A stretch of DNA of 64,000 bases from Clostridia bacterium (lineage in GTDB: Bacteria; Bacillota; Clostridia; Christensenellales; Borkfalkiaceae): the NCBI GenBank assembly GCA_017399945.1, contig JAFQAQ010000020.1, positions 1 to 64,000 of the forward strand, written 5' to 3'. Positions 6,249-11,413 of the stretch are shown one piece after another. Every line of letters begins with the position of its first letter. Position 1 is the stretch's first letter. Below the pieces are notes generated by a model, which saw only the letters and a program-made list of their open reading frames with translations, had not been told where the DNA came from and did not search any database. A program made the position numbers and the translations under genes.

Positions 6249-8396
6249 CTAAAAGGGATTTTTAAGATTTCCGTTGTTTTGGGCGTTTAGGTATCTATAT
6301 GAAGTTAAAAAACTAACGCACTTTTTAGGCGAATACTCGGCGAAAATTTGTTCCGCGTAATCGTAAGCTATCACGCAATCAAACTTTTGGTTAAGTCCCC
6401 TATAATTAGGTTTATCACCAAACTTTGAAAAAATCGCAGTAGTTTTGCCTTTTATATTCAAAGTCAAACAATACCCGTCGTTTAGGAAAGTTGCCACAAC
6501 CCCTTGCATTGATATTTGTTGTCCGTCGGGTAAATTTTTAGTTTCAATACCCTTAAAAGTTAGCCTTAAAGCGTTTTCTTCTTGCAGGCGAATATCTCCG
6601 TGATAAACAACCTTTTTTATTGGCATTACCTTATAGATTGCCGACACCACGTTTTGTATATCCGTATTGCCGTCGTAATTGGTTACTATAAGCGCGTCTA
6701 TACTATCTATATTGCTAGAAACCTTTATACGGTTTAGCCTACTTTGTGGGCAGTAGTCGTCGTACACGCTTACCACCATTGCAGAATAATCCTTTTGGGT
6801 AATTACCGCACAACAAAAGGAGTTAGTTCCTAAAAGATAGGTTTGCTTTCTGTTATAGTCTACCACGCCACTTATAGTAGTCCCTAAAATAGAAAGTAAT
6901 ATTAGACTTAAACAAGCAATCGTTCTAACCGTTTTTGGAAAGTTAAAAAAGCAACAGCCGACGAGTATTCCCGCGTATAAAAATATTGAAAACAGTCCAA
7001 AGGAAAACCCACCCACTATAAACGGGCCGTAATCGAAAAAGGTGATTACCTTAATTAAGATTTTTATTAGAATATTGCTTATAAATAACGCTACCGTCGG
7101 AATGGAGAAAACGCTTGCTATAATCACCGCTATTAAAGTGGTTACGTAAACTATTCCAACGATTGGTATAAACAACAAGTTGAGCAACACCGAAACGAGT
7201 GAAAACTCGCCAAAACACCACAAACTTACCGGTATTGAAAACACTTGCGCCGATATAACTGCGCTTAATGAACTTGCTAATTTCTTTGGCATAAACTTAA
7301 ACGCCTTTTTTAGGTAGGGAGATAAAACCAATATACCCAAAACCACTATAAACGATAGTTGAAACCCTGCGCAAAAGGCTTCTGCGGGACATATCAAAAG
7401 CACCAAAACGGCGGATATTCCTAATGCTGAAAGCCCGTCGTATCTAAGCCCGAGTTTAGTTATTACTAGCATAGTCGTACACATCACTAACGCCCGTATT
7501 GACGATGAGGAAAAACCACACGCACCCGAGTAAAATAACAGTATAATAAAGGTTAAAATAACGGCTATCCAAGATTTTAGTTTTAGTTTTCTAAACACGA
7601 AATTAAGCACTGTGGCTAAAAAGCCGATATGAAGTCCCGACACTGCGAATATATGCGCGACGCCTGCTTGACGAAACCCTAATATAACTTGGTCGTCAAC
7701 GTAATCGTCGTTACCCATAAGTAAAGCGTAGGCAACGGCAAACTCACTCTCTCCCATACCACTTTTCAAAGTATCCCTTACGAAGATATTTATACTTTCA
7801 AAAATAGTTGGGGAACTATCCGTAACTTTTATTTCCGAAAGGTTAATATTCGCTCTATATTTTATCGAACGGCGAAGATTATCGCTTGCTAGACGGTTTT
7901 CGTAAATATATCCGTTATCGTGCAATGAACAACTAAACTCCACCAAGTCGCCTACTTCGGGCGCGTTATCAAAACTGCCCGTTGCGTATACGGCTATTTT
8001 ATACGAAGTGCTTTTGTTTACCTTGCCAGATAGCCTTACGTTACCCACCGTTATACGCACGCCCGAATTGGTTTTCGCAAGGTTTTCCACCCTTCCCGTA
8101 ACCATATAAGTTCCACCGCCAAGGTCGGCTTTTTTAAAAGAATTTAACTGTAAACAAAAACCACCTATCCCAAGCAATAACGCAAGTAAAAAACATGCGA
8201 TTGGGATAAGTGATTTGGTTAGATTTTGCCCTTTTACGCTATAAATTATATAGGTCGTTAATAACCCCACGAACAACAATATAAACGTTATCGCCAAAAG
8301 ATATTTATCGGTGGCGAAAAAGCCTGCGATACATATTCCGCCGACCATACTTAAACCTATATAAAATGGAAGTCTAAGGTTTGCTAGTTTTTTCAT
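6249..8396 (-). CDS. comEC: ComEC/Rec2 DNA-uptake channel protein, degenerate C-terminal domain
   Basis: A 715-residue polytopic membrane protein. The N-terminus has hydrophobic segments and a DUF4131-like extracellular domain (about 1-190). A competence (ComEC) core spans about 215-500, with the signature VAHIFAVSGLHIGFL near 245-260. The C-terminal third sits where the metallo-beta-lactamase-like domain is found, but the usual HxHxDH metal site is not present; the equivalent position reads ALIVTNYDGNTD. The protein could still form the single-stranded DNA channel while lacking the nuclease activity proposed for this domain in other ComECs. Sporulating anaerobes often keep comEC without proven competence. 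holA follows downstream. Confidence 0.87.
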   Translation of the reverse strand: MKKLANLRLPFYIGLSMVGGICIAGFFATDKYLLAITFILLFVGLLTTYIIYSVKGQNLTKSLIPIACFLLALLLGIGGFCLQLNSFKKADLGGGTYMVTGRVENLAKTNSGVRITVGNVRLSGKVNKSTSYKIAVYATGSFDNAPEVGDLVEFSCSLHDNGYIYENRLASDNLRRSIKYRANINLSEIKVTDSSPTIFESINIFVRDTLKSGMGESEFAVAYALLMGNDDYVDDQVILGFRQAGVAHIFAVSGLHIGFLATVLNFVFRKLKLKSWIAVILTFIILLFYSGACGFSSSSIRALVMCTTMLVITKLGLRYDGLSALGISAVLVLLICPAEAFCAGFQLSFIVVLGILVLSPYLKKAFKFMPKKLASSLSAVISAQVFSIPVSLWCFGEFSLVSVLLNLLFIPIVGIVYVTTLIAVIIASVFSIPTVALFISNILIKILIKVITFFDYGPFIVGGFSFGLFSIFLYAGILVGCCFFNFPKTVRTIACLSLILLSILGTTISGVVDYNRKQTYLLGTNSFCCAVITQKDYSAMVVSVYDDYCPQSRLNRIKVSSNIDSIDALIVTNYDGNTDIQNVVSAIYKVMPIKKVVYHGDIRLQEENALRLTFKGIETKNLPDGQQISMQGVVATFLNDGYCLTLNIKGKTTAIFSKFGDKPNYRGLNQKFDCVIAYDYAEQIFAEYSPKKCVSFLTSYRYLNAQNNGNLKNPF

Positions 8397-8449
8397 TTTT
8401 TATCTTTGGTATCGTTTTTTGTCGTTTTGTAATTTTTGCGTAAAATCAA

Positions 8450-8478
8450 TTGATTTTTAATAGAGAGAGTGGTATTAT
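8450..8478 (+). promoter_or_regulatory. Sigma-A-type promoter for the 8.5 kb RNA
   Basis: TTGATT (8450-8455), a 17-bp spacer and TATTAT (8473-8478) predict a start near 8485. It diverges from comEC and has no plausible downstream coding start of its own, so it probably drives the structured RNA at 8485-8690. The same TTGATT-N17-TATTAT pattern occurs upstream of the aspartyl-tRNA synthetase gene. Confidence 0.65.
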
Positions 8479-8484
8479 GATTTT

Positions 8485-8690
8485 AGCCTTCGTTGCTCGA
8501 TAGGAAACGTTTAAAAAATCCACAAATCATATTAAAGAAAGTCTCGCCACGTACTGCCGAGCGGAGCTCCCGACCGTTGTTATGCAAGGTCGCTAAACGG
8601 GAGATGCAGAATCTTTACAGCGGACGTTCGCCTGTTAACGAAACGGGTTATTCTTTGCGTTTCCGTCGGCTTTACGCAGGTTTTTTTTGT
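8485..8690 (+). ncRNA. Candidate structured non-coding RNA (unassigned)
   Basis: About 205 nt lie between a good promoter and a hairpin-plus-T8 terminator (arms TGCGT 8656-8660 and ACGCA 8674-8678, T-run 8681-8688). A strong internal stem is CTCCCG (8567-8572) with CGGGAG (8598-8603), extended inside by GACC/GGTC. Shorter stems include CTGC/GCAG around it and CCTGTT/AACGGG at 8631-8646. GGAAACG (8503-8509) is complementary to CGTTTCC (8658-8664); this pairing would enclose the molecule, and because CGTTTCC overlaps the terminator arm it could also act as a switch. Motifs of SRP RNA, RNase P RNA, tmRNA and the common riboswitches were not found. A 6S-like RNA is one possibility; no family is claimed. 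Confidence 0.6.
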
Positions 8691-8694
8691 AAAT

Positions 8695-8724
8695 AAAAGG
8701 GGTTTACCCCTTTTTTATTTTAAA
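8695..8724. terminator. Second terminator after the structured RNA
   Basis: Hairpin AAAAGGGG-TTTA-CCCCTTTT followed by further T residues, immediately downstream of the first terminator at 8656-8690. Tandem terminators insulate the downstream antiporter operon, which has its own promoter. Confidence 0.8.
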
Positions 8725-8774
8725 CCTTTTTTCATCTTATAGCAAGAGTTTTTACTTTATTACTGTACTTTTTG

Positions 8775-8803
8775 TTGACAAACGCATTTTAAAGTATTAA
8801 AAT
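8775..8803 (+). promoter_or_regulatory. Promoter of the antiporter-AEC operon
   Basis: Near-consensus sigma-A promoter: TTGACA (8775-8780), 17-bp spacer, TAAAAT (8798-8803). It predicts a start near 8810 and a leader of about 57 nt before the antiporter ATG. Because it lies after both terminators, the antiporter operon is probably transcribed independently of the upstream RNA. Confidence 0.8.
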
Positions 8804-8866
8804 TTGCTTTGATTTTGTATTATTTATTACTAGTTATTTAGAAAAACTTTAAAGAGAGAAATTAAA

Positions 8867-10135
8867 ATGGAAGTGTTGTTTAGTTTAGCCGTGGCTATTT
8901 TTGCTGGGCTCATGCTATCTAGGTTAGCAAAGTTGTTGCAACTCCCCGCCGTTACAGCATACTTGGTTGCAGGTATTTTGATTGGTCCTTTCTGCCTTGG
9001 CGCTTTTGGTGTGCACGGTTTAGGTTTCGTGGATAAAACCTGTTTAGAATCCATGAACGTTATTTGCGACGTTGCACTTGGTTTTATCGCCTTTTCAATC
9101 GGCAGTGAATTCCGTTTATCTAACCTTAAAACCATTGGCAAACAAGCAACCGTTATCGGTATCATTCAAGCAGTTTCCGCAACCCTTTGCGTTGACGCTG
9201 CGCTTATTGGTTTCCATTTTATTTTCCCAGAAGTTCTCCCCTTGCCAGCAGCAATTATTTTGGGCGCAGTTGCTTCGGCAACGGCACCTGCGGCAACTTT
9301 GATGGTCGTTCGTCAATATAGGGCAAAGGGTCCGCTTACCGATATTCTACTTCCCATAGTTGCGCTAGACGACGCAGTGGGCTTAGTACTCTTTTCGGTT
9401 TCTTTCGGCATAGCAAAAGGTCTTATTAGTGGTTCGGTTAGCCTTATTTCCATTTTACTTGAACCTATTATCGAAGTCGTTGCTTCCATTATCTTAGGCG
9501 CTGGAATCGGATTTTTACTCTCTTATTTTGAAAAGTTTTTCTTATCGAGAGCAAAAAGACTTACTCTTGCGGTTTGTTTCGTTCTTCTTACCGTTGCGGC
9601 TTCTTCACTATCCTTTAACGTCGGTGGAGTACATATCGCTTTCTCCCCATTACTTACTTGCATGATGGTGGGAACTATTTTCTGTAACGCGTGTGACTTT
9701 TCTGAAAGCGTTATGGATAGACTTGACCGTTGGACTACCCCTATATTCGTCTTGTTCTTCGTTATAAGTGGCGCTGAACTAGACCTTTCGGTCGTTTCCG
9801 ATTTGATGGTAGTGTTAATCGGCGTTGTTTATATGGCTTTCCGTTGTATCGGAAAATACTTCGGCGCAGGTTTAAGCGCTTCTGCTATGAAATGTTCGCC
9901 TGCAATTAGAAAATATTTGGGAATTACACTCTTCCCACAAGCAGGCGTTGCGCTCGGCATGGCAAGCATCGTTAGTTCTGCCGGTCTTGGAGAAATAGGC
10001 ATTTTAGTGCAAAGCATCACCTTGTTCTCCGTTTTAATCTACGAACTAGTTGGTCCTTACCTTACCAAGATTTCTCTTATAAAAGCAGGCGAAGTCGAGC
10101 CCGAAACTAAACCGGAAAAATTAAAAGCTAATTAG
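8867..10135 (+). CDS. Cation:proton antiporter (CPA2/Kef type)
   Basis: A 422-residue integral membrane protein with about 12-13 hydrophobic segments and the monovalent cation:proton antiporter-2 fold. Typical features are the N-terminal helix with LARLLQLPAVTAYLVAGILIGP-like sequence (here about 20-44), an acidic IGSEF position (about 82-86), and the conserved GAVASATAPAATL segment (about 132-145). It should exchange Na+ or K+ for H+ at the cytoplasmic membrane. It ends soon after the last helix, without the TrkA-N/RCK nucleotide-binding tail of classical Kef proteins, so ligand gating would need a separate subunit. The AEC transporter gene starts 4 nt after its stop. Confidence 0.88.
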   Translation: MEVLFSLAVAIFAGLMLSRLAKLLQLPAVTAYLVAGILIGPFCLGAFGVHGLGFVDKTCLESMNVICDVALGFIAFSIGSEFRLSNLKTIGKQATVIGIIQAVSATLCVDAALIGFHFIFPEVLPLPAAIILGAVASATAPAATLMVVRQYRAKGPLTDILLPIVALDDAVGLVLFSVSFGIAKGLISGSVSLISILLEPIIEVVASIILGAGIGFLLSYFEKFFLSRAKRLTLAVCFVLLTVAASSLSFNVGGVHIAFSPLLTCMMVGTIFCNACDFSESVMDRLDRWTTPIFVLFFVISGAELDLSVVSDLMVVLIGVVYMAFRCIGKYFGAGLSASAMKCSPAIRKYLGITLFPQAGVALGMASIVSSAGLGEIGILVQSITLFSVLIYELVGPYLTKISLIKAGEVEPETKPEKLKAN

Positions 10136-10139
10136 TATT

Positions 10140-11144
10140 ATGATAAAGGTTTTTTTAGCGACACTCAACCCAATGCTAACTTTGTTTTTGTTTATGATTT
10201 TGGGTTTTACTCTTTATAAAATTAAGATTTTGCCCGAAGACTCTGCAAAGGTAATGGCAAAACTTGAAACTTATTTATTTGTCCCTGCCCTTTCAATCGC
10301 CAGCATGCTTACGGTTACTCCTGATAAAATTGCAACCCACGCTACCAATATCATTTTTTCTGGATTAAGCGTTGGTTTAGCAATTTGCTTGGCACTTTTA
10401 ATCGCACCACTTTTTGTAAAAGATAAACAATCCTACGAAAGAAAGGTGTATAACTACGCACTAACCTTTGCAAACTCAGGGTATCTAGGCGATCCCGTTG
10501 TTTTAGCGTTGTTCGGATTAGAAGGTCTAGCATACTACAAAATCGCTTGCATACCCGTTTCTATAATGTGTTATGGTTGGGGTGTGCCACAACTTGTTCC
10601 AAAAGGACAAAGTGGACAAGGTTGGAAAAGATTTTTCCCTTTGCCAAGTATATGCACTTACGTTGGATTGCTTTTAGGTCTAACTGGCGTAGGCACATTT
10701 ATAAACACTACCCCTGCACTTAAATTTGCAACCGACGGTTTGGAAAAATTGGGCGACTGTATGGGCCCTGTTGCAATGCTAATTGCAGGAATTACCGTTG
10801 CAAGATTTCCATTTAAGCCAATGCTTACCAACAAAAAAGTGTATTTTGCATCTTTTTTAAGGCTTATCGTTCTACCTGCAATTATACTTTGCGTATTGTT
10901 TGGGGTTAAAGAATTAGCCAACTTGGTATTTGGTTTGCATATAGACAACCTACCATTGTTTTTAATATTCTTTATGATTGCAACACCATTGGGACTGAAC
11001 ACCGTTGTTTTCCCCGAAGCGTACGGAGGCGATCCTTCGATAGGCGCATCTATGACGATGATTTCGCACACACTTTGCATAATAACAATTCCACTTATGT
11101 TTGCGCTTTTATGCACCTTACTTGGTGCACCACCCGTGTTTTGA
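10140..11144 (+). CDS. AEC family transporter
   Basis: A 334-residue membrane protein of the auxin efflux carrier / malate permease family, with two five-helix halves. N-terminal residues 10-45 (MLTLFLFMILGFTLYKIKILP) and the segment ANSGYLGDPVVLALFG (about 110-125) are typical, and the C-terminal half contains ATPLGLNTVVFPE-like sequence. Members export or exchange small organic anions; the substrate is not predictable. It is coupled to the antiporter gene by a 4-nt gap, so a cation gradient made by one could serve transport by the other, which is inference. A strong terminator follows at 11167-11197. Confidence 0.88.
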   Translation: MIKVFLATLNPMLTLFLFMILGFTLYKIKILPEDSAKVMAKLETYLFVPALSIASMLTVTPDKIATHATNIIFSGLSVGLAICLALLIAPLFVKDKQSYERKVYNYALTFANSGYLGDPVVLALFGLEGLAYYKIACIPVSIMCYGWGVPQLVPKGQSGQGWKRFFPLPSICTYVGLLLGLTGVGTFINTTPALKFATDGLEKLGDCMGPVAMLIAGITVARFPFKPMLTNKKVYFASFLRLIVLPAIILCVLFGVKELANLVFGLHIDNLPLFLIFFMIATPLGLNTVVFPEAYGGDPSIGASMTMISHTLCIITIPLMFALLCTLLGAPPVF

Positions 11145-11166
11145 TAATAATTTTTACAAATATAAT

Positions 11167-11197
11167 AAAAAAAGAACACCTTTTGGTGTTCTTTTTT
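11167..11197. terminator. Terminator of the antiporter-AEC operon
   Basis: A 13-bp perfect hairpin (AAAAAAGAACACC-TTTT-GGTGTTCTTTTTT) directly follows the AEC gene. It is symmetric and could also act on the minus strand. It abuts a partial copy of the tRNA-Glu 3' end. Confidence 0.9.
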
Positions 11198-11199
11198 GA

Positions 11200-11217
11200 T
11201 GGTAGCCCCAACGAGAA
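11200..11217. repeat. Partial duplicate of the tRNA-Glu 3' end
   Basis: The 18 bp TGGTAGCCCCAACGAGAA at 11200-11217 recur exactly at 11339-11356, where they are the CCA end, acceptor strand and part of the T-arm of tRNA-Glu. In both places a similar terminator hairpin stands immediately on the low-coordinate side. The upstream copy continues into unrelated sequence. The arrangement fits a decayed tandem tRNA copy or an attachment-site duplication. Confidence 0.75.
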
Positions 11218-11307
11218 ATTGCCACACAAGGTGGCAAAACTCTGTCCGTCAACGCAAGCCCGTCACAGTCGTACGAACGACAAGTTCGATTCTGCTGAGA
11301 CAACAAG

Positions 11308-11336
11308 AAAAAAGACACCCAAAAGGTGTCTTTTTT
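11308..11336. terminator. Terminator downstream of tRNA-Glu
   Basis: Hairpin AAAAAAGACACC with GGTGTCTTTTTT around a 5-nt loop. On the minus strand it lies 2 nt beyond the tRNA-Glu 3' end and ends in a T-run. It resembles the hairpin at 11167-11197, consistent with duplication of a tRNA-terminator unit. Confidence 0.85.
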
Positions 11337-11338
11337 AT

Positions 11339-11413
11339 TGGTAGCCCCAACGAGAATCGAACTCGTGATTCCGCCTTGAGAGGGCGGCGTCTTAACCTCT
11401 TGACCATGAGGCC
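11339..11413 (-). tRNA. tRNA-Glu (anticodon CTC)
   Basis: A 75-nt cloverleaf on the minus strand. Acceptor stem GGCCTCA pairs with TGGGGCT (two G-U pairs), the anticodon stem is CCGCC/GGCGG with loop CTCTCAA (anticodon CTC), the T-arm is ACGAG-TTCGATT-CTCGT, and CCA is encoded. It reads GAG glutamate codons. It is flanked by terminators on both sides. Confidence 0.94.

Follow-up and report, generated by a model that had tools for sequence, protein, structure and literature searches.

A single-copy gene beside comEC in a Clostridia bacterium very probably encodes a sequence-divergent 6S RNA

What kind of RNA is encoded next to comEC in Clostridia bacterium (GCA_017399945.1)? The window, that is, the whole stretch of 64,000 nucleotides analyzed here (contig JAFQAQ010000020.1, positions 1 to 64,000), contains at 8450-8714 a transcription unit consisting of a conserved promoter, an RNA of about 202 nt (8485-8686) and a terminal U-run. 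A first-pass annotation had described a free-standing structured RNA of unknown family, "6S-like" in a passing guess, whose ends might act as a switch. The sequence elements that it named are all present, namely the promoter (8450-8478), GGAAACG (8503-8509), CGTTTCC (8658-8664) and the pair TGCGT/ACGCA (8656-8660/8674-8678). From the comparison of related sequences, we put at about 96% the probability that this locus is the single-copy 6S RNA (SsrS) gene of the bacterium, with the divergent sequence that is typical of the genus. That is, the RNA is a divergent new member of a known family and not a new kind of RNA.

All parts of the gene lie on the plus strand. The promoter found by the promoter scan (TTGATT-N17-TATTAT, 8450..8478) has a TG before the -10 box. 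Its position is kept in most congeners, and its aligned form in the genus alignment of 30 copies (the window and 29 congeneric loci) resembles TTGCAT-N17-TACAAT. Transcription is predicted to start near A8485, 7 nt past the -10 box, and the RNA gene occupies 8485..8688, with a mature RNA of about 8485-8686/8688. The RNA would end by intrinsic termination at a run of eight T residues (8681..8688), and most congeners have a T-rich tract after AGG at this place. The terminator scan detected another hairpin that carries a T-rich tail (8695..8714), a candidate back-up terminator that is not general among the congeners. The scans gave modest excesses over shuffled sequences, with 10 promoter-like sites against 5.2 and 4 terminator-like sites against 2.7. 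The promoter and terminator elements of a single sequence, taken alone, are weak evidence for an RNA gene. In one subgroup (L023, L025 and L030), the promoter-like sequence appears to be shifted upstream by about 50 nt, which suggests that a 5' leader is processed off the 6S RNA there.

At the Rfam gathering thresholds, the search of the whole window gave two tRNAs and nothing else. In a permissive search of 8300-8900, RF00013 (6S RNA) was at the top of 4227 families, with 26.3 bits and an E value of 0.0022; all other families had E values of at least 0.42 and were far under their own cut-offs. The RF00013 alignment spanned the full model (1-187) and placed it end to end on 8482-8686. Since the gathering score of RF00013 is 46.4 bits and the window copy is below it, the Rfam match alone is only a lead. 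The window copy was also absent from the output of the RF00013 search of its own genome, where the first-pass filter had apparently removed it, and from that of the pooled cmscan. Four congeneric homologues were above the cut-off (L013, 64.2 bits; L016, 60.4; L020, 54.2; L009, 48.2), and three of them were recovered in the whole-genome RF00013 search (genomes G023, G035 and G013). Of the remaining families of the order, most yielded accepted 6S RNAs in the same search. Through the four congeners, a significant Rfam match to a housekeeping RNA was obtained, and the designation "unknown family" does not hold, the RNA being a 6S RNA. One genome of the order, G053, had two 6S RNAs above the Rfam cut-off, with 69.0 and 56.7 bits (C126:3124-3327 and C134:16138-16340), a situation that can be likened to the 6S-1/6S-2 pair of B. 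subtilis.

The locus was found by blastn in 31 of the 37 genomes of the genus; relatives with near-full matches had 67-80% identity. The 24 genomes searched from the order's other families gave no match. A covariance model, R1, built from the genus alignment found one full-length copy in 32 of the 37 genomes, each with at least 145 bits; the window RNA scored 186.6 bits. The further R1 matches in the genus were marginal second matches or a contig-end fragment. The RF00013 and R1 searches of the bacterium's own genome showed no further 6S candidate. In the reverse test, R1 matched 9 of the 17 RF00013-positive 6S loci of other families (E at most 2.5e-4). A second model, R2, was made from 16 RF00013-type 6S RNAs taken exclusively from other families of the order. 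The sole match of R2 in the 64-kb window was 8482-8686 (20.3 bits, E 3.9e-5), and 28 of the 29 congeneric loci were also matched, with E values from 1.2e-18 to 7.5e-4. The search of related genomes and the covariance modelling that the first-pass annotation had proposed yielded homologues with covarying stems and 6S matches, and its passing guess proved correct.

The folding energy of the single sequence was ordinary compared with shuffled sequences (z -0.79). Because the fold of one sequence gives no signal over shuffles, the case for the RNA depends on the comparison among relatives. RNAalifold predicted from the genus alignment a closing stem of 21 pairs, an apical arm and a 3'-bubble hairpin. 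Compensatory changes were found in 23 of the 43 consensus pairs across the 30 sequences, and no shuffle attained the observed covariation values. The proportion of paired cells was 95.4%; shuffles gave 87.9%, and sliding the partners lowered it to 40-44%. These compensated pairs and the conservation among congeners bear out the earlier view that this is a free-standing structured non-coding RNA gene.

The closing stem P1 (8486..8509 with 8658..8681) showed two-sided changes at 9 of its 21 pairs and 95.9% of cells paired. GGAAACG and CGTTTCC are part of this conserved stem, and several of their pairs alternate between GC and AU among the sequences. The apical arm (8541..8625, helices 2-5) had two-sided changes at 14 of 17 pairs. 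In the 3' central-bubble hairpin (GCCTG...CGGGT, 8630..8648), 99.3% of cells were paired, and CCUGCC/GGCGGG of other families is replaced here by CCUGUU/AACGGG, a compensatory change between families. The 5' edge of the central bubble (8511..8526) carries the near-invariant AAAAAATCCACA, which is the predicted pRNA template. This motif is one of the invariant islands of the alignment, which are CCT.C, CG, AAAAAATCCACA, CC.G, CGGGTTA and CGGC; the alignment also shows the terminal T-run. The consensus fold has the 6S layout, that is, a length of about 200 nt, a long closing stem, a central bubble and an apical arm.

The standard 6S helix P2 could be formed by AATCC (8517-8521) and GGGTT (8645-8649), and it competes with the 3'-bubble hairpin for GGGTT. 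In free folds the hairpin was predicted in 26 of 30 sequences and P2 in 3 of 30. For most sequences the ground state is thus predicted to lack P2, a point that counts against the 6S reading. As the strands of P2 are near-invariant, this helix is unable to show covariation. A central-bubble-collapse helix was also considered; with the template blocked, pairs between the 5' bubble and the 3' strand appeared in only about one third of the sequences, and we do not claim this helix.

In 29 of the 30 loci comEC is divergent from the RNA, and the remaining locus is cut by a contig end. A tRNA-Glu(CTC) gene was found in 21 of 25 scanned congeneric loci, in 20 of them downstream and on the same strand as the RNA. 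In other families of the order, the arrangement is often tRNA-Val(GAC), 6S, tRNA-Gln(CTG) and tRNA-Glu(CTC); since tRNA-Glu(CTC) is near 6S there too, the position supports orthology. In the window, tRNA-Glu(CTC) is on the minus strand (11339-11413), beyond the antiporter gene and a second transporter gene, of the AEC type. These two genes stand between 6S and the tRNA (8867-11413), whose orientation differs from that in nearly all congeners; a rearrangement specific to this lineage accounts for the arrangement. The tRNA-Glu(CTC) of L020 is likewise on the opposite strand. In six loci of six other families (L111, L112, L113, L115, L121 and L129; about 1300-1820), 6S begins 0-11 nt past the point where tRNA-Val(GAC) ends, and tRNA-Gln(CTG) comes next; two of them also have tRNA-Glu(CTC). 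No own promoter is evident within 50 bp upstream of 6S in these six loci, which suggests that their 6S RNA is cut from the tRNA transcript.

Could the RNA instead be a cis-acting leader or attenuator, in which closure of the ends or formation of a terminator controls the downstream antiporter? The antiporter is the next gene in the window, and the complementary elements are present, with the hairpin TGCGT/ACGCA overlapping the closing-stem element. In the alignment, pairing fails at two of the five positions of this hairpin, in 21 and in 25 of the 30 sequences. The hairpin showed no covariation above shuffles in the 30 sequences and was absent from every one of the 30 predicted minimum-energy folds. 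Because the terminator hairpin is not conserved, the switch proposed in the first-pass annotation fails: the closing pairs covary, whereas the rival hairpin is broken in most sequences. The apparent switch is most plausibly a chance feature of the window sequence. Moreover, the antiporter has its own promoter (TTGACA-N17-TAAAAT, 8775-8803) and is beside the RNA in none of the 29 congeneric loci, in agreement with the earlier view that the RNA is not its leader. The loci from the antiporter search (Clostridia metagenome bins, many from herbivore guts) did not contain the RNA by blastn. We consider a leader function extremely improbable. The same can be said of a gene for a small protein, such as the frame of 67 amino acids at 8493-8696: the window has one open frame, but no frame is consistently open among the congeners, the length differences are not multiples of three, and two-sided pair changes predominate.

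It is slightly less improbable, though still very unlikely, that the RNA is a trans-acting small RNA of other descent whose rod resembles that of 6S, or an RNA that binds polymerase in another way. Ms1 RNA of Actinobacteria, for instance, binds the core enzyme. The score of the window copy below the RF00013 threshold and the sequence divergence in the bubble and the apical arm would fit such an RNA. However, R2, a model that knows only 6S RNAs of other families, finds both the window RNA and nearly all of the congeners, some congeners exceed the Rfam cut-off, the own genome offers no second 6S candidate, and the tRNA neighborhood is that of 6S in other families. We therefore favor the identification as 6S RNA.

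6S RNA parks RNA polymerase as growth slows. The most likely function of the RNA, judged from its family, is to bind the housekeeping RNA polymerase and to release it through pRNA synthesis. On the basis of the described 6S anatomy and pRNA mechanism (PMC8876501, PMC12005410), the RNA would mimic an open promoter and hold the housekeeping (sigma-A type) polymerase on growth slowdown. The polymerase would then copy the 5' side of the central bubble (AAAAAATCCACA, 8513-8524) into a short pRNA, predicted for this genome to be about 5'-(U)UGUGGAUUUUUU, give or take about 2 nt at the start. This synthesis would open P2, the 3'-bubble hairpin GCCTG/CGGGT would take the shared GGGTT strand, and the polymerase would be released. 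The start site is placed by analogy. GG at pRNA positions 4/5 or 5/6 is a conserved feature (PMC8414754), and this rule would give 5'-UGUGGAUUUUUU or 5'-UUGUGGAUUUUU; initiation with GTP, the B. subtilis pattern, would yield 5'-GUGGAUUUUUU. The invariant TCCACA gives UGUGGA in the predicted pRNA, and CCACA is common to the 6S RNAs of other families.

The pRNA template in the genus is a near-invariant A-tract (AAAAAAUCCACA), and thus the pRNAs are predicted to be U-rich and to bind 6S weakly. In one calculation, the predicted 14-mer pRNA hybrids had energies of about -14 to -16 kcal/mol here, whereas the other families gave about -18 and B. subtilis gave -20; the value for L008 was left out because its motif match was misplaced. 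It is conceivable but unlikely that, with such U-rich pRNAs and weak hybrids, the preformed 3'-bubble hairpin, slippage or pRNAs of greater length bring about release in place of a stable pRNA:6S hybrid. The weak predicted hybrids are, speculatively, the only mechanistic peculiarity seen.

These results place 6S throughout a genus of gut Clostridia that would be annotated as mostly without it. The Rfam cut-off misses the genus-type 6S in most species, and this annotation gap is now filled; the alignment of 30 sequences could be added to the RF00013 seed. For an otherwise ordinary housekeeping regulator, a pRNA predicted to be U-rich is a modest variation in how release works, and one that can be tested.

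Compared with known systems, the RNA shares with RF00013 6S/SsrS its length, the rod of closing stem, central bubble and apical arm, the conserved CC in the template strand, the 3'-bubble hairpin and the free-standing single gene. It differs in the A-tract of its pRNA template and in the score of the window copy, which is under the cut-off. It has UCCACA in place of CCCACA, and UUCGCCUGUU...AACGGGUU where the order's other families have ACCCACCUGCC...GGCGGGU. With the 6S RNAs of these families (L111-L130) it has in common the reciprocal covariance-model matches and the tRNA-Glu(CTC) neighborhood; those genes often lie between tRNA-Val(GAC) and tRNA-Gln(CTG) without an evident promoter, whereas the gene here has its own promoter and a divergent comEC. 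Like 6S-1 RNA (BsrA) of B. subtilis, it is a Firmicute 6S RNA with a small 3' central-bubble hairpin and CC in the pRNA template, and a GTP-started pRNA is also possible for it. In contrast to 6S-1, it is present in a single copy, its predicted pRNA is U-rich, and GGGTT is shared by the 3'-bubble hairpin and P2, which is nearer to the competition of the E. coli type.
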